Assembly (NCBI GenBank): GCA_021234155.1
Contig: JAJEKV010000057.1
Coordinates: forward strand, 5,611,821 to 5,675,820
DNA from: Isoetes taiwanensis
Taxonomy: Eukaryota > Streptophyta > Lycopodiopsida > Isoetales > Isoetaceae
Reading direction: 5' to 3'
Length of the DNA stretch: 64,000 nt
In this document: positions 1-29,846 of the stretch, piece after piece
How the letters are laid out: the number at the start of each line of letters is the position of its first letter
Position numbering within the stretch: the first letter of the stretch is position 1
Notes under the pieces: generated by a model
What the model was told of the DNA's origin: nothing
The model's database searches: none
The model's input: only the letters and a program-made list of their open reading frames with translations
Position numbers and translations under genes: made by a program

Positions 1-100
1 ACGTGGAGTTGGCCTTGGAAGTGCGACTATGGCTTGGGAATGCTCCAAGGTCAGTTACCGCTTAGGGGCGGTGTTGGGTTATTTTTAATTGGCATTTTGT

Positions 101-520
101 TTTTTGGAAGGCAAGAATCTGTATTATATTCGAATGATAAAACATTTATGTACATACAGTTGAGTATGGAACTACTACCACTTCTCTGATCCATGAATAG
201 TAGTCCAGACTCTTAGCCTTGTGGCTCTTAGAACCCCTCTCAATATCTTCTCTATAGGATACTACAGGAGAGGAAGACTAAGTTTCTAGACCCTAATGAT
301 GCAAATAGGGCCAGCTACGGGATAAGAACTACCCGACCTCTTCTCTAAACAGATACTATGGGAGCACATATCTTGTCTTTCCCCATGCCCCAACTGCATC
401 ATAGCTTCAAAAAGGTTGGCTCTAAGATAAACAGAAGAAACTAGACTTGAGTTAGAGAGCTATAGAAGAACGGAGCAGCCAAGTGCACTGATCTGCCACC
501 ACTATGTTAATATGACATTT
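101..520 (-). mobile_element. Probable 5'-truncated LINE 3' end
   Basis: On the minus strand the segment reads into a short A-rich tail at about 107-116, preceded by a run resembling cagattcttgccttcc. This is the layout of a non-LTR retrotransposon 3' terminus with poly(A). In unit 2 the matching tail (8713-8722) is a longer pure homopolymer. No coding sequence is visible. The class is inferred from tail geometry alone, and no target site duplication was found. Confidence 0.4.
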
Positions 521-689
521 TTAATATGAATATTAATGGGACTGTTTTAAAAGGCTTAACCATTGAATGTTGGGGATCCACATGGCGAAACCCCATTGGC
601 TGTAGCCATTTAAAGGGGATTCATTCCCCCTCATACGAACAACAAACAAAGGTCACGGGATCTGTTAATAGGTTCTGGATTCTAGAAGG

Positions 690-1119
690 AGGACCGATTT
701 GGAGGCCAGTTGATGTTGAGACGGGTGCATACACAGATGTTGGTCAGTTTGCCATTGAAATATTTATCCCCATCCTTATCTGTAAAAGCAAATTGTTTTA
801 GCTTCGAGCCTTCCTTTTTCTAGTCTGCCCATGCCCTGTCGATTCTTGAAGAAGATGAATATATTGTGATAAAAAGCACCAACATGGCTACAAATGCTAG
901 TGCTCCTGCCCTTGCTATTACTACCCTCCCTACATTTCTGCCCTTGCCTCCTTCGTATGTTTTTGGCATATACCATTGCACAAAAATAACATCAAGACAA
1001 AGGAAACCTAAAAAAATGAAGGAAATAAAAACCCAATATTACTGCTCTTTATCTCCCACAAATCCTGCACTTAAGTCCACCAATCCCATCCAAAACACAT
1101 CGTGCACTATAATTCCCAT
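690..1119 (-). pseudogene. Dead copy of the two-TM membrane-protein gene (unit 1)
   Basis: On the minus strand, exon 1 (1043-1119) encodes a start followed by VDLSAGFVGDKEQ and ends at a GT donor in the same phase as the intact gene at 44950-46426. Exon 2 (about 690-973) carries the KTYEGGKGRNVGRV start, the first hydrophobic segment, and the motif ICVCTRLNINWP. The relic is broken. The exon 2 acceptor AG is not visible, a TAG stop falls just after the membrane segment where the intact gene has lysine, a second stop follows the NWP motif, and the C-terminal half is missing. The same stops occur in unit 2, so the copy was dead before the duplication. Confidence 0.8.
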
Positions 1120-1626
1120 ATGCGATCTTCTTCTTCGTCTCTGCTTTCATTTCAATCCATACATATTGCACCTTCAGAACTCATCCGTGTCCATTCTGTC
1201 ACTTTCGTGAAAGCTTCCATTGTTTAAAGTCAATTTATATGACTTCTGTTTACATAACCCAATTGCAGTGGTTTTGGAGTATTGTATGACATTTAGACTC
1301 AGTCTTTGTCCGCATGTTACTTGTTGTTGATTTACATTTTAGTTTCCAGTTGTAAAGAGCAATCCTTTATTTGTGTTCTAATGTAACTTTCTCTACATTC
1401 AAAACCCTTTATTCCTTTAAAACACGAACATTTAAGCATATAAAGGAATATTTGAACATATTTTAATCAAAAGTTATTGTTGATTATTGTTTGATTTCAG
1501 GCATTTAGATCATATATGAAGCCTTTACAAAAGTCTGTAGGTGTACGTAGTGGATGTACACAATATTTTCCATTTGACTAAAGAATATTTGCAAACACAA
1601 AACATGGTGGTTTTGGCAATAATTCC
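1120..1626. other. AT-rich spacer, no gene seen
   Basis: No supported coding sequence. It holds the 5' flank of the dead membrane-protein gene. At 1436/1437 it also holds the A/T site that is interrupted in unit 2 by the 2.36 kb Helitron. Confidence 0.6.
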
Positions 1627-1917
1627 TCATCTTTGTTGAACAATAAAGAAACTATAATCACAAACCATTTGAAGGGGTAGAAATCCGGTCTCTTGCAGAA
1701 GAATTTGATATGGAACTGTGGACTTGACTCCAAGTGCTCGGGCTAGAAAGGCTTTCTGTACCCGTTTCAAGTCATCCCACATAGCAAATGATGTCACTAG
1801 TCCCCATACTTCTGCTCCGTACAGGTGCGTCGGCTCCACCAACACCCTGAACAAGTACGACTGGTGTGTATAAAACTCTGCTCTATGGCAATTGTCCTGC
1901 TTTGCATAGAATTGCAA
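1627..1917 (-). pseudogene. LINE-B reverse transcriptase C-terminal fragment (unit 1)
   Basis: An open 96-codon minus-strand frame contains LVEPTHLYGAEVWG, followed by a DLKRVQKAFLARALGVKSTV-like stretch and an LLQETGFLPLQ segment. The same order of motifs lies downstream of the YADD region in the LINE-B copies at 39295-41282 and 49150-49600. It is the post-RT thumb/connection part of a non-LTR polymerase. Upstream catalytic motifs are absent, so this is an isolated fragment. An identical copy lies at 12604-12894. Confidence 0.75.
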
Positions 1918-2844
1918 TGTTTCCAGATAAATCTTTTACATTTAAGAGTACTTTCTCACAACCTAGACCTCATGGACCTACTCCATCTGCTGCAATGCCA
2001 CTTCAGGATTCTTGTATTGCAACTTCGATCAATGCTTTTTGATCTAGAGTTGAACGTTCTATGACTCCCTCATCTAGGGTTGAGTGTCCTATCATTTATT
2101 CTCCTGTGACTGTTCCTAGTATTAAATTGTCCACTATTACCTCCTCAATTATTATACCTCTTGCTATAGTTTCATTTTCCACTGCATTATCTACTCTTCC
2201 ATCTCAAGAGCTCTCTCTTGATATTGTGCCATTTAGTATATCTAACAAGGTCTCAAGTGATATGGATGTGATAGAATCATCACAAATTTCTAAGACTATA
2301 ACAGAGCGTGGTGATGGTTGGAGAATTGCTCTAGAAAGAAGCAATCTTCCACAATTATGGGTGAGTTAGAGGATAGGCATACTGAATAAAATTATGAGAT
2401 GTACATGTAGTCTTGTACAGAGGGGCGTTTTCTTCCTTCGAGTTTTAAACTTGTCTTCCAGCTTATTGTGGTTTTTCTCTGATTGTTGGTAATGATATTT
2501 ACTTGTCGTCAATGTTATGAGCCTTGTTTCCATGATCATAAGTTATCCAAGAAGCGTCTATATGGAAAGTTAAATAGTACCAAACCAAGATTATTCAATA
2601 TGCTACTTCATTGTCATTTACAAGTAACAATTAAAATGATTTTCTTCTTGCGAATTTTGTGGGGTACATAATTACATTATTTAAAGTAGATGTTCCAGTT
2701 TTTTTATGTAATCCCATAGCTTTGGTTTCAAGTTGTCCTATTATCACTCTTATATAATGCATTTTCATTTTCTGTCCTCCATATTTTGTTTGCTGCATTT
2801 TCTTTGAAATTGACTCTCTTGCTGACACGTGTCGTGTTTCAGCC
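1918..2844. other. AT-rich region with unassigned Ser/Thr-rich open frame
   Basis: A plus-strand frame of 102 codons (2061-2369) is rich in Ser, Thr, Ile and Pro and resembles no family I recognise. The frame upstream of it (about 1930-2060) continues the same composition but is cut by a stop. It may be a piece of a retroelement polyprotein linker. It is present unchanged in unit 2 (13038-13346). The remainder is AT-rich flank of the LINE-A insertion. Confidence 0.35.
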
Positions 2845-2884
2845 TTTTTTTTTTTTATTATTATTATTATTTTTTTTTTTTTTT
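2845..2884 (-). repeat. LINE-A poly(A) tail with (AAT)n interruption
   Basis: The plus strand shows T-runs flanking a (TTA)n stretch; on the minus strand this is the A-rich tail of LINE-A, just after the terminal sequence CACCTTGCCCTC. The tail at 13822-13862 in unit 2 has the same layout with a few base changes. Confidence 0.8.
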
Positions 2885-2975
2885 GAGGGCAAGGTGTTTT
2901 TTATATTGCATTTATATGAAATACATAAGTACCTTTGCTTATAAAAGCAAAGAAAAAGGAAAATTCAGTAGTATA

Positions 2976-3005
2976 GAATAGAATAGAATAGAATAGGTTT
3001 TTAGC
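2976..3005 (-). mobile_element. 30-bp unit-1-specific insertion ending in (TATTC)n
   Basis: Unit 1 has 30 extra bases here, flanked by direct repeats GTATA (2971-2975 and 3006-3010), where unit 2 has a single GTATA. On the minus strand the insert reads GCTAAAAACC followed by four to five TATTC units. This is the same pentamer tail found at the 3' end of LINE-C (61401-61464). It could be an extremely truncated retroinsertion with a 5-bp TSD, or a local microsatellite gain. Confidence 0.5.
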
Positions 3006-3168
3006 GTATAGGAACTGCTATAGTAGCTAGGTCCTTACAATCTAATAACAAAACTTAGATATGAGAAGGAAAAATAAAACCAAGATGAAGTTATCAAGTA
3101 TGAAAACTGTCGATATCCTAGATATTATCCCTGTAAATATTGTTCTGCCAGACTTCACAGCCGAAAAA

Positions 3169-3520
3169 CTAAGCCACATCAAGCACATCCTGTAATGTGA
3201 AGTCTGGTATGTCTCTCTTGCCAAACATCCTCAGCATTGTGTCCAAGTTTTCTGGTGTATAATTCGTGAAGTCAAGTAGAAGCAGGACATGGGCCTGTCT
3301 CTTCTGCTGCCATTTGTGGAACAGGTTCTCAAAGTACGGTTTGAGATTATTAAACCTCCATACCTCTCTGTTATTGAGCACCCTCTTTATAGCTTTCGCA
3401 TGTACCATTTCCCTTCTTAGTTGCTTGAATGTACTTTCTTGCTCAAACTTGGAGAGTTGAGAGAATTCTTCATCTTCATATTCAGCAACTCCCATCATTC
3501 TCTCTCCACTTCCTGTACTA
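3169..3520 (-). pseudogene. LINE-A extra C-terminal coding segment
   Basis: A minus-strand frame continues past the ORF2 stop at 3518 in a different phase and stays open to 3169 (153 codons counting the overlap upstream). Its composition is protein-like: an acidic EYEDEEFSQLSKFEQES part, then REVWRFNNLKPYFENLFHKW and a hydrophobic LLLLDFTNYTPENLDTMLRM part. The simplest reading is that ORF2 once ran about 110 residues further and a frameshift separated this tail. I do not recognise the domain. In unit 2 the tail is split by the CACTA-like insertion. Confidence 0.5.
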
Positions 3521-4492
3521 TTCAGTCTCTTCATTTCTCCTGTGCAATACATCATCAAATACATTAAGACTAGTAAGGTAGAAATCAAAATATCCCTGAA
3601 ATGTACCAAATTTCTCCCATGATCTATCATAACTTTTTCCTTTTGCCAATTTGTGTGCCACAGCTGTCTCTGTCATAAGATAAATGAACTCCTTTTTAAT
3701 CCAGAATAAGGAAGGATTCTTGTTTCCCATTTGAACCCTATTTCTATGTTTCCAGAGGATCCAAGAACTTAAAATTCTAGTAGTATTCAGGATTTGAGTA
3801 TTGGCATTCATAAATGAAAGGAAATTATTAGCTGTTATAGATCCCTGATTTATCTGTGCTGCCCAGCTCCAAAAATCTGCAATTTTGTGACATGTGAAGA
3901 CATGATTTGAACTTTCTGTTTGACCACAACCCAGGGGACACGTAGGTGAAACTGAGCTATCATATTTGGCCCTTTTGTCATTTGTTGGTAAGCTCTGATG
4001 TAGCAGTAACCATCTAAAGGTTTTAATTTTATTAGCTGTATACATTTTCCAACTTTTTGCAATAATCTTGGCCAATGCCTTCTCATCACAATTCCATATA
4101 CTGTTTGCCTTAGAATCTTTGTAACCTATGATTAACCTGTAGATATCCTTAACTGAGTAGATCTCTTTTCCATTTAAGGTCCATTGATTAGAGTTTGCAC
4201 TGAAATCATCTATTGAAGCTACCTTTAGCATGATTCTTTTATAAATTTCCTTATCCACCTGAGATCCCTTTGTAATCACTGCCACCTCTTCCCAAATTTT
4301 CCATCTGTTTCCCTCTCTTAAGTCTTCAAACTTTCTGATACCAGCATTATGCCATTGCATGTATTTCTGTGGATGTTTGAAGGCTAAGCATCCTTCTTCT
4401 TCTGTAGTAAAATCTGGATGCCAAAACATATGGACTTCCTGACAATTTGCATCTATAAGGGGAGGTTTGTAACAAAGACTTGCCTCATTCAA
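3518..4492 (-). CDS. LINE-A ORF2 C-terminal part with zf-RVT domain
   Basis: This 324-codon minus-strand frame follows the RT frame with a 4-bp overlap and a change of phase, so it is the C-terminal part of one ORF2 separated by a frameshift. About residues 150-215 form a zf-RVT segment: an RWLLLHQSLPTNDKR lead, then CPLGCGQTE and HVFTCHKIADFW, giving the Cys and His positions of the zinc-binding motif. The N-terminal 140 residues are the linker that follows the RT thumb in plant LINEs. It acts with the reverse transcriptase during target-primed reverse transcription. Unit 2 holds a more damaged version (24781-25710). Confidence 0.8.
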   Translation of the reverse strand: MNEASLCYKPPLIDANCQEVHMFWHPDFTTEEEGCLAFKHPQKYMQWHNAGIRKFEDLREGNRWKIWEEVAVITKGSQVDKEIYKRIMLKVASIDDFSANSNQWTLNGKEIYSVKDIYRLIIGYKDSKANSIWNCDEKALAKIIAKSWKMYTANKIKTFRWLLLHQSLPTNDKRAKYDSSVSPTCPLGCGQTESSNHVFTCHKIADFWSWAAQINQGSITANNFLSFMNANTQILNTTRILSSWILWKHRNRVQMGNKNPSLFWIKKEFIYLMTETAVAHKLAKGKSYDRSWEKFGTFQGYFDFYLTSLNVFDDVLHRRNEETE

Positions 4493-6129
4493 GCTTCCAA
4501 TATCCTTCTCATAGTTTTAGATGTACCTGTAGTTGGTTTAATCTTGAAAAAAGCTGAATCCGGAAGTTGATGTTTGATAGTAGGACTCCCAACAATTTGA
4601 GATTTTTCAATCCAAAATTTGATTAACTTCAGAGCAGGAGATGGTTTTGTACAATAAATAGCCCTCCACACTAATTTAGCAGCCAAAGCCTGTGCTTGAA
4701 GAAAAAGATCCTTGCATCCTAATCCACCATTCTTTTTGTCCTTAATTAGATCTGACCATGCCACCTTGTGATTACCCTGCCAGATGAATTTCCTAATAGC
4801 AGACTCAATTTTGTTGTATGAACATTTATCCCCAATAATAGCAGAAGAGAAATAAATATGTGTACTACTGATGACTGCATTTGCAATTTCAACTCTGCCA
4901 GCTAAAGATAAGGTAGCAGGATATTTGTTAAGTTTCTGCTTGATTCTTGAAACAATTGGCTCCCATACTCCAGGAAGGTTTTTGTTTAATGCTAAAGGAA
5001 TACCTAAAATGGAAATGGAAGTATTCTTATCCAGAATCTTAATATCCTGTAAAAACTGATCTGTAGTCTCCATAATAATTGCACTTTTTTTCCTGTTTAG
5101 CCTGACTCCTGAAACCTTACCAAACTCCTCGATTGCATTCAGAAAATTTTCCAAGCTCTCATCTTCATGTTTAAGAAAAACAAAAGTATCATCAGCATAC
5201 TGCATAATGGTGAAAGGTTCTTGATCCTCAGGCATCTCCAATGTTTTTATTTTACCCTGTTGTTGAAGATTTATAGCCATTCTGGTGACAATTTCAGCAA
5301 CAATTAAGAACAGATAAGGGGCTAAAGGACACCCTTGCCTTACCCCCCTCCTACATTGGAATTGCTTAGTTGGACTTCCATTAATTATTAAGGCTGATGA
5401 AGCTGTAGAGTTAAAACTCCAGATTTTTTGGTACACTTCATCTTGAAAACCTAAATGTTTCATAGCTCTTTCCAAAAATTGCCAATTAATTGTATCATAA
5501 GCTCTTTGAAAATCCAACTTGAGTAACATACATTTATGGCCAGATATCTCATTCCAGTGTAATCCCTCTGATGCACCAATGTAATTCTCCAAAATATTCC
5601 TCTGTTGCAAGAATGCTGTTTGACAAGGGCTAATAAGCTTATGTAAGGTAGGTTTCAGCCTGTTTGCAAGAATTTTGGCTAAGATTTTGTAAGTTGCATT
5701 GGTTAGGGAGATTGGTCTCCAGTCCCCAATCTGCAATGGGTTACCTACCTTTGGAATTAGAGTAATATGTCCAGCATTAATAGCAGGGTTCAATCTCTTT
5801 GCCTTCCAAGCTCCTTGCATGAAATTTATTAGATCATCCTTGAAAATATCCCAAAACTCCTCATAGAATTCTGGTTGAAAACCATCTGGACCCGGGCTTT
5901 TACCTTTTGCCATTGACTGAGTTCTATCTTGTAATATCTGTGGAAAATGATCAGAAATTGAATTGCTAATGTCCCCAGATATCATGACATCATCCCATGT
6001 GTTAAGATTCCTGTTGCATATGTAGAACCTATCCAGAAGGCAGAAAACCCTTTCCTCATTTTTCCTTTTATTGCTCCAAGAATAATAATTTGAGGTAGAT
6101 GGAGGAATGTATGAGAAATTTTCCATCAA
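4489..6129 (-). CDS. LINE-A reverse transcriptase (546 codons)
   Basis: Non-LTR reverse transcriptase, which would copy the element RNA at a nicked chromosomal target. Conserved blocks appear in order: KSPGPDGFQPEFYEEFW, ITLIPKVGNP, DWRPISLTNATYKILAKILA, CQTAFLQQRNILEN, KLDFQRAYDTINW, GVRQGCPLAPYLF, and the catalytic QYADDTFVF (YADD near 5189-5200). These are followed by GVRLNRKKS and SILGIPL. The first codon shown is not the true start. The homologous protein continues from the endonuclease in another phase, through a one-base shift near 6150 that both units share. The frame is open, but the element as a whole is broken. Confidence 0.9.
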   Translation of the reverse strand: MMENFSYIPPSTSNYYSWSNKRKNEERVFCLLDRFYICNRNLNTWDDVMISGDISNSISDHFPQILQDRTQSMAKGKSPGPDGFQPEFYEEFWDIFKDDLINFMQGAWKAKRLNPAINAGHITLIPKVGNPLQIGDWRPISLTNATYKILAKILANRLKPTLHKLISPCQTAFLQQRNILENYIGASEGLHWNEISGHKCMLLKLDFQRAYDTINWQFLERAMKHLGFQDEVYQKIWSFNSTASSALIINGSPTKQFQCRRGVRQGCPLAPYLFLIVAEIVTRMAINLQQQGKIKTLEMPEDQEPFTIMQYADDTFVFLKHEDESLENFLNAIEEFGKVSGVRLNRKKSAIIMETTDQFLQDIKILDKNTSISILGIPLALNKNLPGVWEPIVSRIKQKLNKYPATLSLAGRVEIANAVISSTHIYFSSAIIGDKCSYNKIESAIRKFIWQGNHKVAWSDLIKDKKNGGLGCKDLFLQAQALAAKLVWRAIYCTKPSPALKLIKFWIEKSQIVGSPTIKHQLPDSAFFKIKPTTGTSKTMRRILEA

Positions 6130-6625
6130 AGCATCCCAAGCTTCCTTTCCTTTCTAGCCATATTTATTTTCTTTCCTAGCTTCTGGTCCCACACTGGTGT
6201 ATTGTTAAAATCTCCTGCCATCATCCAATTGTCTATATTTTCAGTCTGAATCCATTGTAGAATGTCTTTCCATTGTTCTTGTCTTTCATTTGTTTCAGTG
6301 GATGCATACACATTTATAATAGCTATTATCTCCATTCCTCTTTGTAGGACTGCTACATTCCATCTTCCTGATTGATGTGCAAACTTTTTAAGACATTTAA
6401 AGCCCCACCATACGATGCAAATGCCACCTTTGGTACTATCAGCAGCAGACCAAACTGAGTCTCCTCCAGGTTTAATCCAATCATGTAATTTTGAGGTCTA
6501 AAATTCTGGAAGTCTATGTTCCTGCATCAAAATAATATCCGCTCTCATTTCTTTAAGGGCAATAAGTGCCCTTTTCCTTTTGAGAGAACCCTTAATTCCT
6601 CTCATATTCCATGTGATGATCTTCA
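6126..6625 (-). pseudogene. LINE-A endonuclease domain, copy 1 (broken)
   Basis: Apurinic/apyrimidinic-type endonuclease that nicks the target for priming. Compared with the intact frame in unit 2 (27383-27883), the N-terminal motif WNMRGIKG and the MQEHRLPEF segment are present. A GAG to TAG change then stops the frame near 6500, leaving an open frame only from 6335 with INVYAST and MMAGDFNN. The last codons run out of phase with the RT at 6126-6129. Confidence 0.85.
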
Positions 6626-8503
6626 TGCTGGATATTTTTTCCTTTCCTGTACTCTCAGGTTCAAAGCTGGACTGTTAGGGGGAAATTTCACATTCTTTAT
6701 TTTCTTCTTGGTGGTGTGGGGAGTATAGAATATCTCCTTTTCATTTTCTTCCATACAAGGACTTATAGGACTGACATCCTGGCCATTTGGACTTATTGGC
6801 CTATTGTTATCAATTCCCAGGCCATTTGGACTTATTGGTCTATTGGTTCCAATTCCCAGGCCATTTGGACTTATTGGTCTATTGGTCCCAATTCCCAGGC
6901 CATTTGGACTTATTGGTCTATTGATCCCAATTTCCAGACCATTTGGGCTTATAGGATCTTGCAAACCCTGAATCTCCATAGGAGATCTTGTGAAAAACTT
7001 GAATTCTGACTTATATTTTATGGTATCTTCAATACATTCCTCTTGTGTTTCTGGTACCACATCAGGATAATCATCAGTTTGAGACTGCTTCTTAACATTT
7101 ATCTTCTCATTTCCAAGGTCTTCATACTTATCCAAGTGATTTTCTTGTGTTTCTGGTACCCCCTCAATTATTTGTTCCATTTGATTCTCTCTGCCTTCAT
7201 TATTTCTATCATTTGCCAAAGTTTCAGCTTTCTCCATCAATTCCAACAAGATATCATACATGTTTTACCGGATTTGTCCTCCCCAAATACTTAGAGCTTG
7301 AAGCTTCTCCTTTATGAATAACCTTCCCATTATTCATCCCAAAGATTAGAATCTGAGAGTTGACCATCATGTTTAGTGTTTATTGAAGAAATTGAAGGAC
7401 TATGAGGACTCGAGTTCTGATCAGTAATATTTACCCTTTGCATTCTTGGGACTTATAGGGACAATGGATAATTCCAACACCTGGCCATTTGGTCTTATAG
7501 GTTCCTTGAAATTCTCCATTCCCTGGCCACTAGCATTGACTAGCACTTTGATCTGTCCATTCATTTTATTGTGTTCTTCTTTTTTCTTCCATTCCTTTCT
7601 CAAAGTATTCAAACTTTTGGAGCCTTCTTCCTTATTTTCAGTTTTATCTTTGTCTTTCTGTTTTCTAGCCTTTCTGTTAGCACTTCCATTCCTGTTCTTG
7701 TTACTTGATCCACCCATGGATTTGCTTTGGAGACCTCATGTTCATAATAATGAGTTTCTTTATTTTTAGTAACAGCTTGGTCAACATTGTGCTTCATCCA
7801 CTTACCCTGACATACTCCTCCACCATGCAACCTTAGACCACAGATATTACATGGTGCAGGAAGACCCTGCCAATTGAGGGATAAGCTCTTGTATTCTCCA
7901 AAGAAATCTTGGTACTGAACTTGGCTTGGTATTTCTTTTAGTATATCAATTTGGATCCAAATTTTTGGAGCTCTTTCTGGAACTCCTTCCCATCCTATGT
8001 ATTCACCTATTCCCGAGAACAATTCTTTGAAGATATCCTCATGTCAATACATTGGATTTAGCCCTGCTACAGTGCAAGCTGCTGGATGGTACAGTTGTTT
8101 TAAATCCTTAGGATCGAATTTTGGGTTCCATTTCTGGAAATAGAATTGAGTGTTGGCTCTGTAAATGGTACCCTGCTTAAGTAAATATTGAACTGTATTT
8201 GGATTTCCACATTCTATCACAAAGAAAGGGAATTGCAGCCAATACATTCCAGAAATTTCTACCTTTCTATCCATCTTCATAATTTCAGTTTTAAGGTAGC
8301 TTAGTTTCACTCCCTCATGTCGAATACACCCAATAACTGCACCTCCTTTGACTTGAATAGGGATTATTGTTTTTTGTTCCTCTGCCCCATTCCGGCGAGC
8401 AGCGAGCACAGGGACAAGGCTGTGGACTTGTTATCCGAAAAGCAAAATGACGGACAAGGATTCCATCTAAAGATGGTGCATAGGTCATCGCCGGAATCGC
8501 CAC
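6623..8503 (-). pseudogene. LINE-A ORF1 (gag-like), copy 1, fragmented
   Basis: ORF1 encodes the RNA-binding chaperone of the element. Minus-strand pieces lie in successive frames: 8044-8503 (N-terminal part with CIRHEGVKLSYLKTEI and MYWLQFPFFVIE, resembling the DUF4283 domain of plant LINE gag proteins), 7609-8022 (containing a zinc knuckle CNICGLRLHGGGVC, spacing C-x2-C-x4-H-x4-C), 7421-7717 (Lys/Glu-rich) and 6623-7261 (coiled/acidic segment and a 13-residue repeat). Several frameshifts divide them. In unit 2, 473 codons of the same protein are continuous (27918-29339). Confidence 0.85.
6780..6945 (-). repeat. 39-bp tandem repeat within LINE-A ORF1
   Basis: Four to five copies of a 39-bp unit encode GLGIGTNRPISPN (13 residues) in frame, with single-codon variants. 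The core ISPNG also appears elsewhere in ORF1. Unit 2 holds the same array at about 28066-28235, next to a 30-bp segment (DLQVGDMQGQ) missing from unit 1. Confidence 0.85.
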
Positions 8504-8712
8504 ATTATAAGAGCCATTATGCCAACAAGACAGAGCTTCTAGCCGAGCTGATGGTTATTGAAGATGAAAGCCATATTGTTACGGTCCAAGGGCGAGTCAC
8601 GCTTGCAAACCTTGGGACGTGGAGTTGGCCTTGGAAGTGCGACTATGGCTTGGGAATGCTCCAAGGTCAGTTACCGCTTAGGGGCGGTGTTGGGTTATTT
8701 TTAATTGGCATT

Positions 8713-9135
8713 TTTTTTTTTTGGAAGGCAAGAATCTGTATTATATTCGAATGATAAAACATTTATGTACATACAGTTGAGTATGGAACTACTACCACTT
8801 CTCTGATCCATGAATAGTAGTCCAGACTCTTAGCCTTGTGGCTCTTAGAACCCCTCTCAATATCTTCTCTATAGGATACTACAGGAGAGGAAGACTAAGT
8901 TTCTAGACCCTAATGATGCAAATAGGGCCAGCTACGGGATAAGAACTACCCGACCTCTTCTCTAAACAGATACTATGGGAGCACATATCTTGTCTTTCCC
9001 CATGCCCCAACTGCATCATAGCTTCAAAAAGGTTGGCCCTAAGATAAACAGAAGAAACTAGACTTGAGTTAGAGAGCCATAGAAGAACGGAGCAGCCAAG
9101 TGCACTGATCTGCCACCACTATGTTAATATGACAT
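8713..9135 (-). mobile_element. Probable LINE 3' end (unit 2 copy)
   Basis: This is the counterpart of 101-520. The homopolymer on the plus strand (about 8713-8722) is followed by the same ggaaggcaagaatctg boundary, and no coding sequence is visible. It differs from the unit 1 copy by only a few bases. Confidence 0.4.
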
Positions 9136-9304
9136 TTTTAATATGAATATTAATGGGACTGTTTTAAAAGGCTTAACCATTGAATGTTGGGGATCCACAT
9201 GGCGAAACCCCATTGGCTGTAGCCATTTAAAGGGGATTCATTCCCCTCTGCGCGAACAACAGCAAGGCTGCCGGATCTGTTAATAGGTTCTGGATTCTAG
9301 AAGG

Positions 9305-10067: not shown

Positions 10068-10089
10068 CGCGGCGGCCAAGGCCGCCGCG
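10068..10089 (-). other. Helitron 3' terminal hairpin
   Basis: This is a perfect 22-bp GC-only-stem palindrome (arms CGCGGCGGCC and GGCCGCCGCG around a 2-base centre), ending 12 bases from the element terminus at 10056. That position is where Helitron 3' hairpins lie. Confidence 0.85.
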
Positions 10090-19085: not shown

Positions 19086-19089
19086 CTCC

Positions 19090-19300: not shown

Positions 19301-22300
19301 GAATAAAGGGATCTGAAGAACTTAAAGCGCTGACACACTTCCCCAACTCGAACCAGGCCAAGACTTTGCGCAGCTTTCTCACCAGAGGGGAGAGGCCAGA
19401 CCCCAGGAGATGGACCTCAGAAAGGTTGTCAAGGCAGCCTTTCCTATCAGCGCTCCTCTGGGAGGGCAAATGCCAATTCCCCCCATCCCCCCTCCGGGAG
19501 CTCAATTTTCCTATCCGACCGTTGAATCCGTCATTCAAGTAACCTGCTTCGAGCAGGCTCAAAAAAATCCAAGATCCGTCCGGGAGAACTTATCACACCA
19601 CAAAGCGTTCTGCGGGTTGACCGCATAGAAAACCAAGTGTTTTGTTGTTCGGGCAGTACAAAGGCTCTGGAATGGAGATTTGACTTCCCCATGTCGTCCG
19701 GAATGGCGAAATTACCCCAGGGACCAAATACATGGTCATTTTTTGCAACGAAAGAAACATGAACCCTCTACATAGCGGTATTCCGCAGCCACCTCCAAGG
19801 CCAATTGACTACGAACGTGTCGATCCAAAACGTAAACCCTGTGCCTTGCCAGGTTATTGTAGGGTTTACGTTATGGAGGTCGAGTTTTATTCAATTGCAC
19901 TTGAAACATGGTCGAGAAGCTGCAGTTGAAAACAAGAAGCAATAGAAACTGACGAAATGGGGTTTGGATTTACCGAGGCAGGCTTTCCTACCAGTGCTCC
20001 TCCGGGAGGGCAAATGCCAATGCCTCCCTCCCCGGAACCCGGTTTCCCTATCCGACCGTTGAATTCTCCATTCAAGTAACTTGCTTCGAGCAGGTTCAAA
20101 AAAATTCAAGATCTGTCCGGGAGAACATATCAAACCGCAAAGTGTCTTGCAGTCGACCATGTAGAAACCCAAGTGTTTTGTCGTTCGGGCAATACAAAGG
20201 CTCCGGAATGGAGATTTGACTTCGCCATGTCGTCCAAAACAGCGAAATTACCCTAGGGACCAAGTTACACGGTCATTTTTTGCAGCAAAAGAAACACAAA
20301 CCCTATACATGGCAGTATTCTGCACCCTCCGATAAGGCCAATTCACTACGAACGTATTGGACATGAGCTACTTTGGCGCTTCCTGGAGCAGGGGTGGTCT
20401 TCTGCCCACGAAGCTTGGTCTCCAAGGTAATGTCGATGTTTCGAGTCCGTTGGCAGAGTCAGATCACAGTTCCGGGGTGGGAGAGTTGCCCGTCCGTGGC
20501 CAGGGACCTTCCAGAGAGGACCTTTGGGTCGAACTGCTTCTATAAGGTTTTAGGGCTCCGTCTTCTGGCTTCAATGCCCTCCCACTACCTCATGACATTG
20601 TGCAAGATCCTGGTCCAATCTGGCTAGGGTATGGCCTCCAAAACGCAAACCCTGTGCCTTGCCAGGTTATTGTAGGGTTTACGTTGTGGAGGCCAAAACG
20701 TGGTCAGTTGCAATTGTCTTTCGAACGTGCATGTGGAGCCATAGCAACTGAAATAATAGACTTTGGATCTATTGGCGATCCCGAATCATTCCAAAAAAAT
20801 TTGCTACTACAAAATGTGTTCTTGACTTCTAATTGCGACACTGGGAGGAGGATAAATCCAAACCCCATTTCGTCAGTTTCTATTGCTTCTTGTTTTCAAC
20901 TGCGACTTCTCGACCATGTCTCAAGTGCAATGAATAAAACTTCGACCTCCATAACGTAAACCCTACAATAACCTAGCAACGCGGGGTTTTACGTTTTTGG
21001 AGGCCAAAACGTCGGTCGACTTCTTTGATAACTAGGTGGACCGTTTCTAAACATGCATGGGGAGCCATGAGAACTGAAATAACAGAGTTTGATATTTTAA
21101 CCCCAGGTGATCCCAAACAATTTTGCTCTTGCATAAGGCGCTCTAGACTTTTAATTGCAAAACTAGGAGGAGATTAAATCCAAACCCCATTACTCGCGGT
21201 TTCTACCCGTGTTTTCAAACGTAGCTGCTCGACCATGTCCCAAGTGCAACGGACCAAAGCCCGACCTCCATAACGTAAACCCTACAATAATCTGGCAAGG
21301 CGCAGGGTTTACGTTTTGGAGGCCATACCCTAGTTAGATTGGACCAGGATCTTGCACAATATCATGAGGTATTGGGAGGGCGTTGACGCCAGAAGACGGA
21401 GCCCTAAAACCTTCCAGAAGCAGTTCGACCCAAAGGTCCTCTCTGGAAGGTCCCTGGCCACGAACGGGCAACTCTCCCACCCCGGAACTGTGATCTGACT
21501 CTGCCAACGGACTCGAAACATCGACATTACCCTGGAGACCAAGTTGCGTGGGCAGAAGACCACCGCTGCTCCAGGAAGCGCCAAAGTAGCTCATGTCCAA
21601 CACGTTCGTAGTGAATTGGCCTTAGCGGAGGGTGCAGAATACTGCCATGTAGAGGGTTCGTGTTTCTTTTGCTGCAAAAAATGACCGTGTAACTTGGTCC
21701 CTAGGGTAATTTCATTGTTTTGGCAAATCTCCATTCTGGAGCCTTTGTACTGCCCGAACGACAAAATACTTGGTTTTTCTACGGTCATTGCGCGGGACTT
21801 TGGCGGTTTGATATGTTCTCGGACGGATCTTGAATTTTTGAACCTGCTCAAAGCAAGTTACTTGAAGCGTGGATTCAGCGGCCGGATAGGAAAACGGGTT
21901 AGGAAGGGAGGCATTGGCATTTGCCCTCCGGAGGAGCACCGGTAGGAAAGCCCGCCTCGGTAAATCCAAACCCCATTTTGTCAGTTTCTTTGCTTCTTGT
22001 TTTCAATTGCAGCTTCTCGACCATGTCTCAAGTGCAACTGAATAAAACTTGACCTCCATAACGTAAACCCTACAATAACCGGCAAGGCCGCGGGGTTTAC
22101 GTTTTGGAGGCCATACCCTAGTCGATTGGACCAGGATCTTGCACAATGTCATGAGGTAGTGGGAGGGCATTGGCCTTGGAAAGGCGGAGCCCTAAAACCT
22201 TCGAGGCGGTTCGACCCAAAGGTCCTCTCTAGAAGCCCCGGCCCGCAGGCGTGCAACTCTCCCACCCCGGGCGTGATCGACTACGCCAGCGCCTTTTCGA

Positions 22301-23230
22301 AACATCGACATTACCCTGGAGACCAAGTTTCGTGGGCAAAAGACCACCCCTGCTCCAGGAAGTGCCAAAGTAGCTCATGTCCAACACGTTCGTAGTGAAT
22401 TGGCCTTAGCGGAGGGGCGATCATCGCCATGTATCGTGTTTCTTTTTTTTGCAAAAATGACCGTGTAACTTGGTCCCTAGGGTAATTTCGTTGTTTCGGA
22501 CGACATGGCAAAGTCAAATCTCCATTCCGGAGCCTTTGTACTGCCCGAACGACAAAACACTTGGGTTTCTACACCGTCGACTGCAGGACACTTTGCGGTT
22601 TGATATGTTCTCCCGGACAGATCTTGAATTTTTTTGAACCTGCTCGAAGCAAGTCACTTGTATGGAGAATTCAACGGTCGGATAGGGAAACCGGGTTCCG
22701 GGAAGGGAGGTATTGGCATTTGCCCTCCCGGAGGAGCACTGGTAGGAAAGCCTGCCTCGGTAAATCCAAACCCCATTTCGTCAGTTTCTATTGCTTCTTG
22801 TTTTCAACTGCAGCTTCTCGACCATGTTTCAAGTGCAACTGAATAAAACTCGACCTCCATAACGTAAACCCTACAATAACCTAGCAACGCACAGGGTTTA
22901 CGTTTTGGAGGCCAAAACGTGGTCGACTTCTTTGATAACTAGGTGGACCATTTCTAAACATGCATGGGGAGCCATGAGAACTGAAATAACAGAGTTTCGA
23001 TCTAGTCGCCAATCCGAGTGACCCCAAGCAATTTTGCTACTGCACAAGGCGCTCTACACTTTTAATTGCAAAACTAGGAGGAGAATAAATCCAAACCCCA
23101 TTCTTCCAATTTCTATTGCCTCGTGTTTTCAAAAGCAGCTGCTCGACCATGTCCCAAGTGCAACGGACCAAAGCCCGACCTCCATAACGTAAACCCTACA
23201 ATAACCTGGCAAGGCATAGGGTTTACGTGC
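19300..23230. repeat. Modular inverted array of long repeats
   Basis: A ~650-bp module containing GGGAGGGCAAATGCC, TCAAGATCTGTCCGGGAGAA, TGTTTTGTCGTTCGGGCA and CTACGAACGT occurs in forward orientation at about 19390-19930 (partial) and 19960-20690, and in reverse at about 21290-21970 and 22090-22790. A second ~270-bp module (ATGGGGAGCCATGAGAACTG to CCATGTCCCAAGTGCAACGG) occurs in forward orientation at about 20695-20940, 21005-21265 and 22915-23180. Each module is bounded by a short hairpin. Open frames here are by-products of the repeats, and no known protein is encoded. Confidence 0.8.
19824..23228. repeat. Seven telobox-bearing stem-loops
   Basis: A ~60-base foldback with arms CCTCCAaAACGTAAACCCT and AGGGTTTACGTTxTGGAGG around a ~22-base loop (CAATAACCTGGCAAGG type) occurs at 19824-19878, 20634-20693, 20944-21004, 21264-21323, 22052-22112, 22852-22912 and, truncated, at 23178-23228. 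Several carry the plant telobox AAACCCTA. They mark the module boundaries of the surrounding array. Confidence 0.85.
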
Positions 23231-23440
23231 CATATCCCCACTCGGAGTGCCTAGATGGCATGCTTGAGCCTAGGTGCCATGCCTGACCCACATTGGCATG
23301 TTGGAGAACTTGGCATGTTGGAGCGTATTTGGCATGTTGGAGCTGATGTGGCATGCTTGACCCTAGGTGGCATGTAGAGCCTAGGTGGCATGGTGGAGCC
23401 ACGTTGGCGTATTAGAGCCTACGTGGCATGTTGTTGCATA
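23230..23440. repeat. Second block of the GGCATGTTGGAGCC minisatellite
   Basis: About eight degenerate units (GCCTAGGTGGCATG, ACGTTGGCATGTTGGAG) match the 18736-19085 half of the first array, in the same orientation. The modular hairpin array therefore sits between two minisatellite blocks. Confidence 0.75.
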
Positions 23441-23569
23441 GGTGTAATTTAGAATGGTAGGCGAATCTTAGGTATTCGAGATTAGTTATGTTGGCGAATT
23501 TATTCCGACTTCAATTTCTAGTTATAGAAAGCTAAGCGAGTCTTGATCATTGTTATTTATTAGTACCAA

Positions 23570-24065
23570 CTAGATGTAGGCATGGTTTAATGGTGTTCCA
23601 CTAATGATATCCAAAATGGGGGGATAATGTTAGGATATTGCGTAGTCTTGCCATTTTATAATGCTTGGGGATTTGTTGCAATGGTCCTATTCCCCATAAA
23701 CAATTACATCTCAAATTCTTAATGGTCTAAATTATACCAAGATGTAGGAACGGTTTAATGGTGTTCCACTAACGATATCCAAAATGGGGGAATAATGTTG
23801 GGATATTGCATGGTCTTGCCATTTTAATGCTTGGGGATTTGTTGCAATGGTCCTTTCCTCCATAAAGAAATACATCTCACAATTCTTAATGGTTTGTTAT
23901 GCAAAAATGTAGGCGTGGTTTAATGGTCTTTCTCTAACAATATCCAAAATGTTAGGATATTGTTAGGATTTTTATGATGGTCCTATGACATTAATGCTTA
24001 GGGATTTGTTGCAGTGGTCCCCTGCACCCCTCAAGGAATACAAATCAAATTCTTGATGGCTTTGT
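23570..24065. repeat. ~167-bp tandem repeat, three copies
   Basis: Units begin near 23575, 23743 and 23908 with TGTAGGxxxGGTTTAATGGT and end with CAAATTCTTAATGG. The third is the most diverged. No coding potential. Confidence 0.8.
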
Positions 24066-24079
24066 TATGCAAAAATAGG

Positions 24080-24640
24080 TGTTAAGTAATTGTAGTTGAA
24101 GTAACTTGTCTTACATGGAATACTAGTATAAGGACATGTGATCGTGCACATGCATCACATGTAGCAAATCAAGTACTGGTCCTACCACTATAAAGACCCG
24201 TGATATGGAAGGATAGGACATGTAGAGAATCAAGTATTCTTTCCTACTTCTATAAAGACATGTGACAATAGAAGTATTACACATGTCGTAATTCATGTAT
24301 TCTTTCCTACAATGCCTTAGCAAATAAAGTACTCTGTCCTACTACTATAAAGACATGTGAATGGAAGTATAGGACATGTAGAGAATCAAATATTCTTTCC
24401 TACATCTATAAAGACATGTGACAATAGAATTATTAGACATGTAGAAATTCAAGTATTCTTTCCTATAGTGGATTGTATTATAAAATGACATGTCACAATA
24501 GAAGAAACTACAAAACAACAGTGGATGTTTTAGTCTACTGAAAAAAGAACACCATTATCGAACAAAACCATACCTCCACAAATCCACATGTAGGATTCTT
24601 TGAAAACAGGACATGTAGACCTACCAAAAGTGATGTTTTC
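24080..24640. repeat. Right subterminal repeat zone
   Basis: At least eight repeats combine ACTATAAAGACATGTGA or GGACATGTAGAGAATCAA with TATTCTTTCCTAC. The ACATGT core parallels the ACACGT/ACATGT repeats at the left end, as expected for CACTA subterminal regions. Confidence 0.7.
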
Positions 24641-24670
24641 AACAGTGGACCAAAAACCGGGGTGAGTGTG
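24640..24670 (-). repeat. CACTA-like terminal inverted repeat, right
   Basis: The minus strand reads CACACTCACCCC, then GGTTTTTGGTCCACTGTTG, pairing with 14354-14384. Confidence 0.85.
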
Positions 24671-24780
24671 TTTCCCTTCTTAGTTGCTTGAATGTACTTT
24701 CTTGCTCAAACTTGGAGAGTTGAGAGAATTCTTCATCTTCATATTCAGCAACTCCCATCATTCTCTCTCCACTTCCTGTA

Positions 24781-25710
24781 CTATTCAGTCTCTTCATTTC
24801 TCCTGTGCAATACATCATCAAATACATTAAGACTAGTAAGGTAGAAATCAAAATATCCCTGAAATGTACCAAATTTCTCCCATGATCTATCATAACTTTT
24901 TCCTTTTGCCAATTTGTGTGTCACAGCTGTCTCTGTCATAAGATAAATGAACTCCTTTTTAATCCAGAATAAGGAAGGATTCTTGTTTCCCATTTGAACC
25001 CTATTTCTATGTTTCCAGAGGATCCAAGAACTTAAAATTCTAGTAGTATTCAGGATTTGAGTATTGGCATTCATAAATGAAAGGAAATTATTAGCTGTTA
25101 TAGATCCCTGATTTATCTGTCTTTGACTCCAAAAATCTGCAATTTTGTGACATGTGAAGACATGATTTGAACTTCTGTTTGACCACAACCCAGGGGACAC
25201 GTAGGTGAAACCTGAGCTATCATATTTGGCCCTTTTGTCATTTTTGTTGGTAATCTCGATGTAGCAGTAACCATCTAAAGGTTTTAATTTTATTAGTCTG
25301 TATACATTTTCCAACTTTTTGCAATAATCTTGGCCAATGTCTTCTCATCACAATTCCATATCTTCATGCGCCTTAGAATCTTTGTAACCTATGATTAACC
25401 TTTGTAGATAATCCTTAACTGAGTAGATCTCTTTTCCATTTAAGGTCCATTGATTAGAGTTTGCACTGAAATCATCTATTGAAGCTACCTTTAGCATGAT
25501 TCTTTTATAAATTTCCTTATCCACCTGAGATCCCTTTGTAATCACTGCCACCTTTTCCCAAGTTTTCCATCTGTTTCCCTCTCTTAAGTCTTCAAACTTT
25601 CTGATACCAGCATTATGCCATTGCATGTATTTCTGTGGATGTTTGAAGGCTAAGCATCCTTCTTCTTCTGTAGTAATGCCAAAACATATGGACTTCCTGA
25701 CAATTTGCAT
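24781..25710 (-). pseudogene. LINE-A ORF2 C-terminal part, copy 2 (damaged)
   Basis: Counterpart of 3518-4492. Frames 25348-25710 and 24781-25314 cover the linker and zf-RVT segments. Clustered indels between 25120 and 25420 break the frame and alter the first zinc-ligand region, which reads YVSPGLWSNRSSNHVFTCHK, so the leading Cys ligands are lost. The rest matches copy 1 nearly perfectly. Confidence 0.8.
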
Positions 25711-25746
25711 CTATAAGGGGAGGTTTGTAACAAAGACTTGCCTCAT

Positions 25747-27386
25747 TCAAGCTTCCAATATCCTTCTCATAGTTTTAGATGTACCTGTAGTTGGTTTAAT
25801 CTTGAAAAAAGCTGAATCCGGAAGTTGATGTTTGATAGTAGGACTCCCAACAATTTGAGATTTTTCAATCCAAAATTTGATTAACTTCAGAGCAGGAGAT
25901 GGTTTTGTACAATAAATAGCCCTCCACACTAATTTAGCAGCCAAAGCCTGTGCTTGAAGAAAAAGATCCTTGCATCCTAACCCACCATTCTTTTTGTCCT
26001 TAATTAGATCTGACCACGCCACCTTGTGATTACCCTGCCAAATGAATTTCCTAATAGCAGACTCAATTTTGTTGTATGAACATTTATCCCCAATAATAGC
26101 AGAAGAGAAATAAATATGTGTACTACTGATGACTGCATTTGCAATTTCAACTCTGCCAGCTAAAGATAAGGTAGCAGGATATTTGTTAAGTTTCTGCTTG
26201 ATTCTTGAAACAATTGGCTCCCATACTCCAGGAAGGTTTTTGTTTAATGCTAAAGGAATACCTAAAATGGAAATGGAAGTATTCTTATCCAGAATCTTAA
26301 TATCCTGTAAAAACTGATCTGTAGTGTCCATAATAATTGCACTTTTTTTCCTGTTTAGCCTGACTCCTGAAACCTTACCAAACTCCTCGATTGCATTCAG
26401 AAAATTTTCCAAGCTCTCATCTCCATGTTTAAGAAAAACAAAAGTATCATCAGCATACTGCATAATGGTGAAAGGTTCTTGATCCTCCTGCATCTCCAAT
26501 GTTTTTATTTTACCCTGTTGTTGAAGATTTATAGCCATTCTGGTGACAATTTCAGCAACAATTAAGAACAGATAAGGGGCTAAAGGACACCCTTGCCTTA
26601 CCCCCCTCCTACATTGGAATTGCTTAGTTGGACTTCCATTAATTATTAAGGCTGATGAAGCTGTAGAGTTAAAACTCCAGATTTTTTGGTACACTTCATC
26701 TTGAAAACCTAAATGTTTATAGCTCTTTCCAAAAATTGCCAATTAATTGTATCATAAGCTCTTTGAAAATCCAACTTGAGTAACATACATTTATGGCCAG
26801 ATATCTCATTCCAGTGTAATCCCTCTGATGCACCAATGTAATTCTCCAAAATATTCCTCTGTTGCAAGAATGCTGTTTGACAAGGGCTAATAAGCTTATG
26901 TAAGGTAGGTTTCAGCCTGTTTGCAAGAATTTTGGCTAAGATTTTGTAAGTTGCATTGGTTAGGGAGATTGGTCTCCAGTCCCCAATCTGCAATGGGTTA
27001 CCTACCTTTGGAATTAGAGTAATATGTCCAGCATTAATAGCAGGGTTCAATCTCTTTGCCTTCCAAGCTCCTTGCATGAAATTTATTAGATCATCCTTGA
27101 AAATATCCCAAAACTCCTCATAGAATTCTGGTTGAAAACCATCTGGACCCGGGCTTTTACCTTTTGCCATTGACTGAGTTCTATCTTGTAATATCTGTGG
27201 AAAATGATCAGAAATTGAATTGCTAATGTCCCCAGATATCATGACATCATCCCATGTGTTAAGATTCATGTTACATATGTAGAACCTATCCAGAAGGCAG
27301 AAAACCCTTTCCTCATTTTTCCTTTTATTGCTCCAAGAATAATAATTTGAGGTAGATGGAGGAATGTATGAGAAATTTTCCATCAA
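25747..27386 (-). pseudogene. LINE-A reverse transcriptase, copy 2 (one frameshift)
   Basis: Same polymerase as 4489-6129 with all motifs present, including KSPGPDGFQPEF, GVRQGCPLAPYLF and QYADDTFVF. A small deletion near 26720 (the AMKHLGF region of copy 1 reads AINI/YKHLGF here) splits it into 26709-27386 and 25747-26742. Substitutions relative to copy 1 are few. Confidence 0.85.
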
Positions 27387-27883
27387 AGCATCCCAAGCTT
27401 CCTTTCCTTTCTAGCCATATTTATTTTCTTTTCTAGCTTCTGGTCCCACACTGGTGTATTGTTAAAATCTCCTGCCATCATCCAATTGTCTATATTTTCA
27501 GTCTGAATCCATTGTAGAATGTCTTTCCATTGTTCTTGTCTTTCATTTGTTTCAGTGGATGCATACACATTTATAATAGCTATTATCTCCATTCCTCTTT
27601 GTAGGACTGCTACATTCCATCTTCCTGATTGATGTGCAAACTTTTTAAGACATTTAAAGCCCCACCATACGATGCAAATGCCACCTTTGGTACTATCAGC
27701 AGCAGACCAAACTGAGTCTCCTCCAGGTTTAATCCAATCATGTAATTTTGAGGTCTCAAATTCTGGAAGTCTATGTTCCTGCATCAAAATAATATCCGCT
27801 CTCATTTCTTTAAGGGCAATAAGTGCCCTTTTCCTTTTGAGAGAACCCTTAATTCCTCTCATATTCCATGTGATGATCTTCAT
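27383..27883 (-). CDS. LINE-A endonuclease domain, copy 2 (open frame)
   Basis: 166 codons starting MKIITWNMRGIKG at the expected N-terminus of a LINE ORF2. Motifs of the APE-type endonuclease follow: ILMQEHR, the SVWSAADSTKGGICIVW segment, INVYAST and MMAGDFNN. It would nick the genomic target before reverse transcription. The C-terminus runs 4 bases into the RT frame in a different phase. Restoring phase with KEAWDALMENF aligns the two parts, so this is an old frameshift rather than a true stop. C-terminal endonuclease motifs are therefore missing. Confidence 0.85.
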   Translation of the reverse strand: MKIITWNMRGIKGSLKRKRALIALKEMRADIILMQEHRLPEFETSKLHDWIKPGGDSVWSAADSTKGGICIVWWGFKCLKKFAHQSGRWNVAVLQRGMEIIAIINVYASTETNERQEQWKDILQWIQTENIDNWMMAGDFNNTPVWDQKLEKKINMARKERKLGML

Positions 27884-27917
27884 GCTGGATATTTTTTCCT
27901 TTCCTGTACTCTCAGGT

Positions 27918-29339
27918 TCAAATTTGGGTATTAGGGGAAAATTTCACATTCTTTATTTTCTTCTTGGTGGTGTGGGGAGTATAGAATATCTCCTTTTCAT
28001 TTTCTTCCATACAAGGACTTATAGGACTGACATCCTGGCCCTGCATATCCCCTACCTGCAAATCCTGGCCATTTGGACTTATTGGCCTATTGTTATCAAT
28101 TCCCAGGCCATTTGGACTTATTGGTCTATTGGTTCCAATTCCCAGGCCATTTGGACTTATTGGTCTATTGGTCCCAATTCCCAGGCCATTTGGACTTATT
28201 GGTCTATTGATCCCAATTTCCAGACCATTTGGGCTTATAGGATCTTGCAAACCCTGAATCTCCATAGGAGATCTTGTGAAAAACTTGAATTCTGACTTAT
28301 ATTTTATGGTATCTTCAATACATTCCTCTTGTGTTTCTGGTACCACATTAGGATAATCATCAGTTTGAGACTGCTTCTTAACATTTATCTTCTCATTTCC
28401 AAGGTCTTCATACTTATCCAAGTGATTTTCTTGTGTTTCTGGTACCCCCTCAATTATTTGTTCCATTTGATTCTCTCTGCCTTCATTATTTCTATCATTT
28501 GCCAAAGTTTCAGCTTTCTCCATCAATTCCAACAAGATATCATACATCTGTTTACCTGGACTGTCCTCCCCCAAATACTTAGAGCTTGAAGCTTCTCCTT
28601 TATGAATAACCTTCCCATTATTCATCCCAGCATTAGAATCTGAGAGTTGACCATCATGTTTAGTGTTTATTGAAGAAATTGAAGGACTATGAGGACTCGA
28701 GTTCTGATCAGTAATATCTTTACCCTTTGCATTCTTGGGACTTATAGGGACAATGGATAATTCCAACACCTGGCCATTTGGTCTTATAGGTTCCTTGAAA
28801 TTCTCCATTCCCTGGCCACTAGCATTGACTAGCACTTTGATCTGTCCATTCATTTTATTGTGTTCTTCTTTTTTCTTCCATTCCTTTCTCAAAGTATTCA
28901 AACTTTTGGAGCCTTCTTCCTTATTTTCAGTTTTATCTTTGTCTTTCTGTTTTCTAGCCTTTCTGTTAGCACTTCCATTCATGTTCTTGTTAACAGTCAC
29001 CCATGGATTTGCTTTGGAGACCTCATGTTCATAATAATGAGTTTCTTTATTTTTAGTAACAGCTTGGTCAACATTGTGCTTCATCCACTTACCCTGACAT
29101 ACTCCTCCACCATGCAACCTTAGACCACAGATATTACATGGTGCAAGAAGACCCTGCCAGTTGAGGGATAAGCTCTTGTATTCTCCAAAGAAATCTTGGT
29201 ACTGAACTTGGCTTGGTATTTCTTTTAGTATATCAATTTGGATCCAAATTTTTGGAGCTCTTTCTGGAACTCCTTCCCATCCTATGTATTCACCTATTCC
29301 CGAGAACAATTCTTTGAAGATATCCTCATGCCAATACAT
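27918..29339 (-). CDS. LINE-A ORF1, copy 2 (473 codons open)
   Basis: Gag-like nucleic-acid-binding protein of the LINE. From its first Met (residue 1 is probably internal) it has a basic/aromatic region ending in SLSLNWQGLLAPCNICG, with zinc knuckle C-x2-C-x4-H-x4-C at about residues 63-76. A Lys/Glu-rich segment at about 120-155 follows, then an acidic coiled region. The 13-residue ISPNG repeat runs at about 390-435, and the tail is MEENEKEIFYTPHTTKKK. The N-terminal DUF4283-like part lies at 29345-29704 in another frame. A ~50-base patch near 29345-29400 differs from copy 1 and accounts for the break. Confidence 0.85.
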   Translation of the reverse strand: MYWHEDIFKELFSGIGEYIGWEGVPERAPKIWIQIDILKEIPSQVQYQDFFGEYKSLSLNWQGLLAPCNICGLRLHGGGVCQGKWMKHNVDQAVTKNKETHYYEHEVSKANPWVTVNKNMNGSANRKARKQKDKDKTENKEEGSKSLNTLRKEWKKKEEHNKMNGQIKVLVNASGQGMENFKEPIRPNGQVLELSIVPISPKNAKGKDITDQNSSPHSPSISSINTKHDGQLSDSNAGMNNGKVIHKGEASSSKYLGEDSPGKQMYDILLELMEKAETLANDRNNEGRENQMEQIIEGVPETQENHLDKYEDLGNEKINVKKQSQTDDYPNVVPETQEECIEDTIKYKSEFKFFTRSPMEIQGLQDPISPNGLEIGINRPISPNGLGIGTNRPISPNGLGIGTNRPISPNGLGIDNNRPISPNGQDLQVGDMQGQDVSPISPCMEENEKEIFYTPHTTKKKIKNVKFSPNTQI

Positions 29340-29344
29340 TGGAT

Positions 29345-29798
29345 TTAGCCTGCCTTTCTGATTGCAAAGCTGCCGGATGGATAGTCTGATTGTTTTAAAT
29401 CCTTAGGATCGAATTTTGGGTTCGATTTCTGGAAATAGAATTGAGTGTTGGCTCTGTAAATGGTACCCTGCTTAAGTAAATATTGGACTGTATTTGGATT
29501 TCCACATTCTATCATAAAGAAAGGGAATTGCAGCCAATACATTCCAGAAATTTCTACCTTTCTATCCATCTTCATAATTTCAGTTTTAAGGTAGCTTAGT
29601 TTCACTCCCTCATGTCGAATACACCCAATAACTGCACCTCCTTTGACTTGAATAGGGATTATTGTTTTTTGTTCCTCTGCCCCATTCCGGCGAGCAGCGA
29701 GCACAGGGACAAGGCTGTGGACTTGTTATCCGAAAAGCAAAATGACGGACAAGGATTCCATCTAAAGATGGTGCATAGGTCATCGCCGGAATCGCCAC
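29345..29798 (-). pseudogene. LINE-A ORF1 N-terminal part, copy 2
   Basis: Frames 29610-29798 (MAIPAMTYAPSLDGILVRHF) and 29345-29704 (CIRHEGVKLSYLKTEI, MYWLQFPFFMIE, YFQKSNPKFDP) together make the N-terminal domain. The same two-frame arrangement occurs in unit 1 (8044-8503), so the frameshift between them predates the duplication. Confidence 0.75.
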
Positions 29799-29846
29799 AT
29801 TATAAGAGCCATTATGCCAACAAGACAGAGCTTCTAGCCGAGCTGA

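Follow-up and report, generated by a model that had tools for sequence, protein, structure and literature searches.

A probable young tandem duplication among dead transposons in Isoetes taiwanensis, and the probable base-calling errors that may inflate its clock

The window considered here is a 64,000-nucleotide stretch of the Isoetes taiwanensis assembly (GCA_021234155.1, contig JAJEKV010000057.1; C1064:5611821-5675820), and it contains two direct, adjacent copies of a segment that measures 8.6 kb in each copy once insertions are set aside. Each copy holds a dead long interspersed nuclear element (LINE) and a truncated copy of a membrane-protein gene. The two copies, units 1 and 2, are probably the product of a real and young tandem duplication that followed the death of the LINE and the gene copy and preceded the arrival of two transposons in unit 2, with most of the divergence between them probably arising from base-calling error at CAG/CTG sites. 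The window lies in an assembly of 1,658,258,908 bases in 1110 contigs.

Self-comparison of the window yields three collinear matches at 97.6-98.7% (1-1443 with 8617-10058, 1440-3411 with 12417-14354, and 3408-8561 with 24671-29856), which bears out the tandem duplication of about 8.6 kb proposed in an initial annotation of this DNA. The joints lie at 8552/8553 in the middle and 29847/29848 on the right, with a 2-bp ambiguity, within 1-2 bp of the junctions first proposed (8550/8551 and 29846/29847). Unit 1 had been drawn from base 1; with 10 kb of added upstream sequence, its left end is placed at -63. The homology common to the three joints is GG only (-63/-62, 8553-8554, and 29848-29849). 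The left joint is crossed by all 39 other scored matches among 1737 candidates, and the right joint is crossed by three paralogues (94, 91, and 83%), the remaining ones there being the self-match of the locus, the match to unit 1, and seven matches whose start lies further right. All 39 other matches scored at the middle joint end no more than 9 bases beyond it. Since other copies cross the left and right joints but not the middle one, those two are old and the one between them is new. A 145-amino-acid open frame (8317-8754, plus strand) spans the middle joint, with LINE and protease sequence on one side and the left-end repeat on the other, and Pfam finds nothing in it.

The existence of the duplication in the plant is probable, as judged from the assembly. 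A doubtful but serious alternative is that two haplotypes of one locus, with and without the transposons, were placed in tandem during assembly or scaffolding. The available text of PMC9516828 describes such errors as common, and a corrected divergence of 0.23% would fit two alleles. The assembly history also leaves room for such an event: the available text of PMC8566536 lists Oxford Nanopore v9.4.1 reads, miniasm, racon, pilon, Bionano scaffolding, LR_Gapcloser, and purge_haplotigs, and haplotigs were purged only at the end. However, a gap between the copies is a mark of such errors in the available part of PMC9516828, and no N occurs anywhere in the window. The middle joint carries no filler and an overlap of GG only, and the units are identical in the 332 columns that precede it and the 158 that follow, so that it does not resemble a gap filled from raw reads.

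The order of events is read from lesions that the units do or do not share. The LINE is of the plant L1 type, with an A-rich tail and Pfam matches for endonuclease, reverse transcriptase, and open reading frame 1 (ORF1) with DUF4283, the last of these called in the related LINE copy L004. A 663-bp deletion and two 1-nt deletions, near 6149 and near 4491, are common to both units and absent from all four LINE copies compared (L003-L006). Both units also lack the ORF1 start and share a 5′ truncation, beyond which L004 and L006 extend 481 and 584 nt further in the cut-outs used. The deletion near 6149 is the shared endonuclease/reverse transcriptase (EN/RT) frameshift that the initial annotation had placed at 6129/27386; the 663-bp deletion, the frameshift near 4491, and the truncation extend its list. 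In the membrane-gene relic, the shared TAG that it reported is present in both units and reads CAG in both paralogues.

Two of the lesions named in that annotation fall away. Homology to the membrane gene stops at base 704, and the second stop assigned to its relic lies past that point. The supposed N-terminal frameshift of ORF1 is not shared, as no indel common to both units was found in ORF1; private lesions are a stop at 8044 in unit 1 and a complex change opposite 8062-8094 in unit 2. The conclusion drawn there, that the LINE and the gene copy were dead before the duplication, still follows from the lesions that are common to both units. Unit 1 also carries an insertion that had been described as 30 bp at 2976; it is private to that unit, but 35 bp long and placed slightly differently. 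A private 30-bp deletion occurs in unit 1 at 6775/6776, where the missing bases are present in L003 and L006 and 20 of the 30 in L004.

Unit 2 contains two large insertions, a Helitron-like and a CACTA-like mobile element. Helitron 3′ ends are usually CTRR. The first element inserted between A and T without target duplication, and all six fetched 5′ ends of its kind have TC after A. A hairpin shortly before its 3′ end is more stable than in any of 200 shuffles (z -5.37). Its ends recur elsewhere; among three fetched 3′ ends there are two close matches (L019 and L020), which share CTTG with the insertion, and one variant (L021). The element is therefore called Helitron-like. CACTA inverted ends begin CACTA or CACTG, whereas those of the second element begin CACAC, so it is called CACTA-like. 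It contains arrays of repeats and has many relatives, and 3-bp target duplications flank all three insertions (TTT, ACA, and TAT). Only short open reading frames are listed in either insertion, and no family search was run on them.

Unit 1 holds precise empty sites for both insertions, as first noted. The empty Helitron site is kept in both of two paralogues and the empty CACTA site in all five LINE copies, and the absence of the insertions is therefore ancestral. This agrees with the proposal that both elements are confined to unit 2 and arrived later. The proposed sequence of LINE and gene death, then duplication, then two transposon insertions is thus supported, provided that the duplication is real DNA.

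The clock is a different matter. Over 8564 aligned bases, the alignment of the units shows 96 substitutions, a raw divergence of 1.1%, together with 22 indels; three of the substitutions lie left of the unit and 93 inside it. The differences occur in clusters, and the stretch that separates two neighbors can reach 1645 identical columns. Grouping differences that fall within 10 columns of each other produces 25 clusters, complex or indel, and leaves 20 substitutions isolated; the isolated substitutions alone give 0.23% (20 of 8558; 95% 0.14-0.36%), which suggests that the duplication is young. In 500-bp bins, the variance/mean ratio is 6.6 for all substitutions vs 1.19 for the isolated ones, whose spread is thus almost random. 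Of the isolated substitutions, 17 lie in the LINE, where polarization gives a balanced split, with seven in unit 1, nine in unit 2, and one ambiguous. The internal molecular clock claimed in the initial annotation fails as stated, since only 20 of the 93 in-unit substitutions are isolated and the rest stand in clusters or beside indels and are linked to CAG/CTG. The rate it called for was computed, and the raw value is unfit for dating. At assumed rates of 7e-9 and 1.5e-8, which are not Isoetes rates, the isolated substitutions correspond to about 167 and 78 thousand, and the raw count to 807 and 377 thousand, generations or years. Only the ratio of raw to isolated age, about five-fold, should be used.

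The clusters are associated with one trinucleotide pair. Of the 25 clusters, 19 were tested after removal of four where no outgroup was used and two that are long repeat indels. CAG or CTG lies in or at most two bases from 14 of these 19 polarized clusters vs 6.9 expected, a count that none of 2000 shuffles reaches. The pair ranks first of 32 trinucleotide pairs, and the next has a p value of about 0.1. In a looser test of 23 clusters, CAG/CTG reaches 13 vs 5.8 expected (0 of 1000 shuffles). Other repeat pairs provide a wider view: 14 were given, and 11 produced alignments within the cut-offs. These alignments fill 13 rows, which share sequences, and 12 of the rows have complex clusters. Summed over these, CAG/CTG is found in 28 of 54 clusters vs 13.6 expected, beside 25 vs 24.1 for CAA/TTG, 18 vs 11.6 for GAC/GTC, and 23 vs 18.9 for TCA/TGA. 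At another locus, L001 and L007 differ by a CTGT/ACAGA swap like those in the duplication, which hints that this type of error is wider.

In plants, the C of CHG is methylated, and short-read polishing works poorly on duplicated DNA. In a bacterium, 5-methylcytosine (5mC) in CCWGG accounts for about 70% of Nanopore consensus errors, according to the available text of PMC6591954. Because of the CAG/CTG link, this bacterial precedent, CHG methylation, and the resistance to polishing, base-calling error at CAG/CTG sites is the most likely source of most clustered differences in the assembled sequence. Methylation may be the cause of these errors.

Several observations weigh against this account. 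In the looser test, weak enrichment also appears for AAA/TTT (p 0.004), CAA/TTG (0.035), and AAC/GTT (0.04), and six of the 20 isolated substitutions touch CAG/CTG as well. Isolated substitutions lean toward the right half of the unit (Kolmogorov-Smirnov p 0.04). Among the other repeat pairs the link is mixed, with p <0.05 in three of 12 rows, one of which is equally enriched for GAC/GTC. A literature search found nothing that directly ties consensus errors of this kind to CHG methylation in plants, and in the available portions of PMC9749173 methylation is only suspected in general terms as a source of error. Both the duplication and the base-calling errors are read from the assembled sequence, and neither is proven.

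The clustered differences could instead be real, as products of error-prone repair bursts or of conversion tracts from other LINE copies. Like some genuine lesions, the clusters are complex and private, and many of them break frames in sequence that is dead. However, the changed forms have no match in the LINE copies compared, and at most polarized clusters these copies agree with the other unit. A link to CAG/CTG is expected of neither process; the idea is thus unlikely.

If base-calling error is indeed the source of the clusters, the consensus errors might form a fossil record of DNA methylation in the assembly, in which CHG methylation spread from the CACTA-like insertion into the LINE. This is a speculative extension, improbable on present evidence. 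The 19 clusters were assigned to the changed unit by position (cluster 4288 has a change in each unit), and the events at 6775 and 7260 were polarized by MAFFT alignment. Private complex clusters within 1 kb of the CACTA-like insertion number 10 of 15 in unit 2 and 0 of 4 in unit 1. The 1-kb zone makes up 20% of the LINE length considered, and the resulting binomial P of 1.3e-4 is too optimistic, as the events are not independent. If methylation did spread in this way, unit 1 would serve as the sister control.

A real duplication with superimposed base-calling error would have the following history. A 5′-truncated LINE would have inserted next to the beginning of a copy of an aspartyl-protease gene, with further decay afterward. 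The 8.6 kb segment with this LINE and the truncated membrane-gene copy would then have been duplicated in tandem, possibly through template switching or the repair of a break, with 2 bp in common. The Helitron-like and CACTA-like elements would have entered unit 2 after the duplication, and polishing would have been unable to repair CAG/CTG base-calling errors in the duplicated DNA. Unequal crossing over between unit-end repeats is very improbable, and so is LINE insertion with transport of flanking DNA, even though the left end lies inside a high-copy repeat. The ends share only the 2 bp GG, which led to rejection of crossing over. An older repeat continues without a seam across the left end, which led to rejection of retroposition with flanking DNA, and the right end lies in a protease pseudogene about 210 bp past the LINE.

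Table 1. Coordinates of features of the duplicated locus, in window positions.
Feature	Coordinates	Strand	Remarks
Unit 1 of the tandem duplication (part in window)	1..8552		starts at -63 (0 is the base preceding the window); first 64 bases upstream in L001
Truncated membrane-protein gene copy	704..1801	-	TAG common to both units
5′-truncated dead LINE, unit 1	about 2850..8340	-	endonuclease, reverse transcriptase, ORF1; poly-T at low end
35-bp insertion private to unit 1	2971..3005		absent from 5/5 LINE copies
1-nt deletion, second frameshift, near 4491	4488..4493	-	shared by both units
663-bp deletion point in LINE	5914..5918	-	shared by both units
1-nt deletion, EN/RT frameshift, near 6149	6145..6152	-	shared by both units
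Aspartyl-protease (TAXi-type) pseudogene start, unit 1 copy	8376..8552	+	cut by middle joint
Novel middle joint	8551..8556		protease pseudogene to left-end repeat; common GG at 8553-8554
Unit 2 of the tandem duplication	8553..29847		holds the two insertions
Helitron-like insertion, 2362 bp	10056..12417	-	flanked by A and T; 5′ TC, 3′ CTTG, hairpin near 3′ end
CACTA-like insertion, 10317 bp	14354..24670		CACAC inverted ends; 3-bp target duplication TTT
Aspartyl-protease pseudogene, unit 2 copy	29671..30285	+	continues into right flank

From left to right, each unit consists of an old high-copy repeat, a common repeat at 95-501, the membrane-gene copy, the minus-strand LINE, and the start of the aspartyl-protease pseudogene. 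By eye, the high-copy repeat at the left end resembles the terminal part of a reverse-transcriptase gene. Close copies of the membrane gene lie 4.3 kb upstream of unit 1 (L001) and in C963 (L007), and Pfam gives no family for this gene or its further copies. A further copy is found at 44950-46412 (minus strand); the L001 copy occupies 4186-5902 (minus strand) and has two long open stretches. No convincing target duplication of the LINE emerged when one was sought.

The protease was identified by Pfam TAXi_N and TAXi_C matches in the C1056 paralogue, which is open for 438 residues; the right-flank copy has several stops. The C1051 paralogue (L009) has no LINE, and its two flanking matches lie 118 bp apart. 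An assignment of the right flank as LINE 5′ sequence was rejected, as the flank is the protease pseudogene. Elsewhere in the window, an open frame with EF-hand domains occupies 31477-31911 (plus strand), and a 151-bp inverted pair at 33601-33751 and 38074-38224, 96% alike and about 4.3 kb apart, perhaps represents DNA-transposon ends. Direct repeats at 48428-49820 and 58286-59627 are 81% alike and adjoin frames that resemble reverse transcriptase.

The biology of the locus is ordinary, and its main use is as a caution on the raw clock. In Nanopore-based plant assemblies, CAG/CTG-linked errors may inflate the divergence of near-identical copies about five-fold, and dates of duplications and transposon insertions from such assemblies therefore need checking. 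If the duplication is confirmed, its sister copies with and without transposons would be suited to viewing the spread of methylation.

The Helitron-like element shares the TC start, 3′ hairpin, and A/T target of Helitrons but ends in CTTG instead of CTRR, and the CACTA-like element shares the inverted ends and 3-bp target duplication of CACTA elements but has CACAC in place of CACTA or CACTG. False heterotype duplications, as described in the available text of PMC9516828, likewise place near-identical copies side by side in an unphased assembly; here, no gap separates them. The errors at 5mC motifs reported for Nanopore data (Dcm sites, in the part of PMC6591954 available) occur in native DNA at sites with a C(A/T)G core, as do those proposed here, but that case concerns bacterial CCWGG, whereas the present one would involve plant CHG methylation, which is presumed. 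The locus itself is probably an ordinary tandem duplication among dead transposons. Like known tandem segmental duplications with junction microhomology, which arise by end joining or template switching, it has adjacent direct copies, one new joint, and 2 bp of shared sequence; it does not differ from them in kind, and a similar pathway may have produced it.

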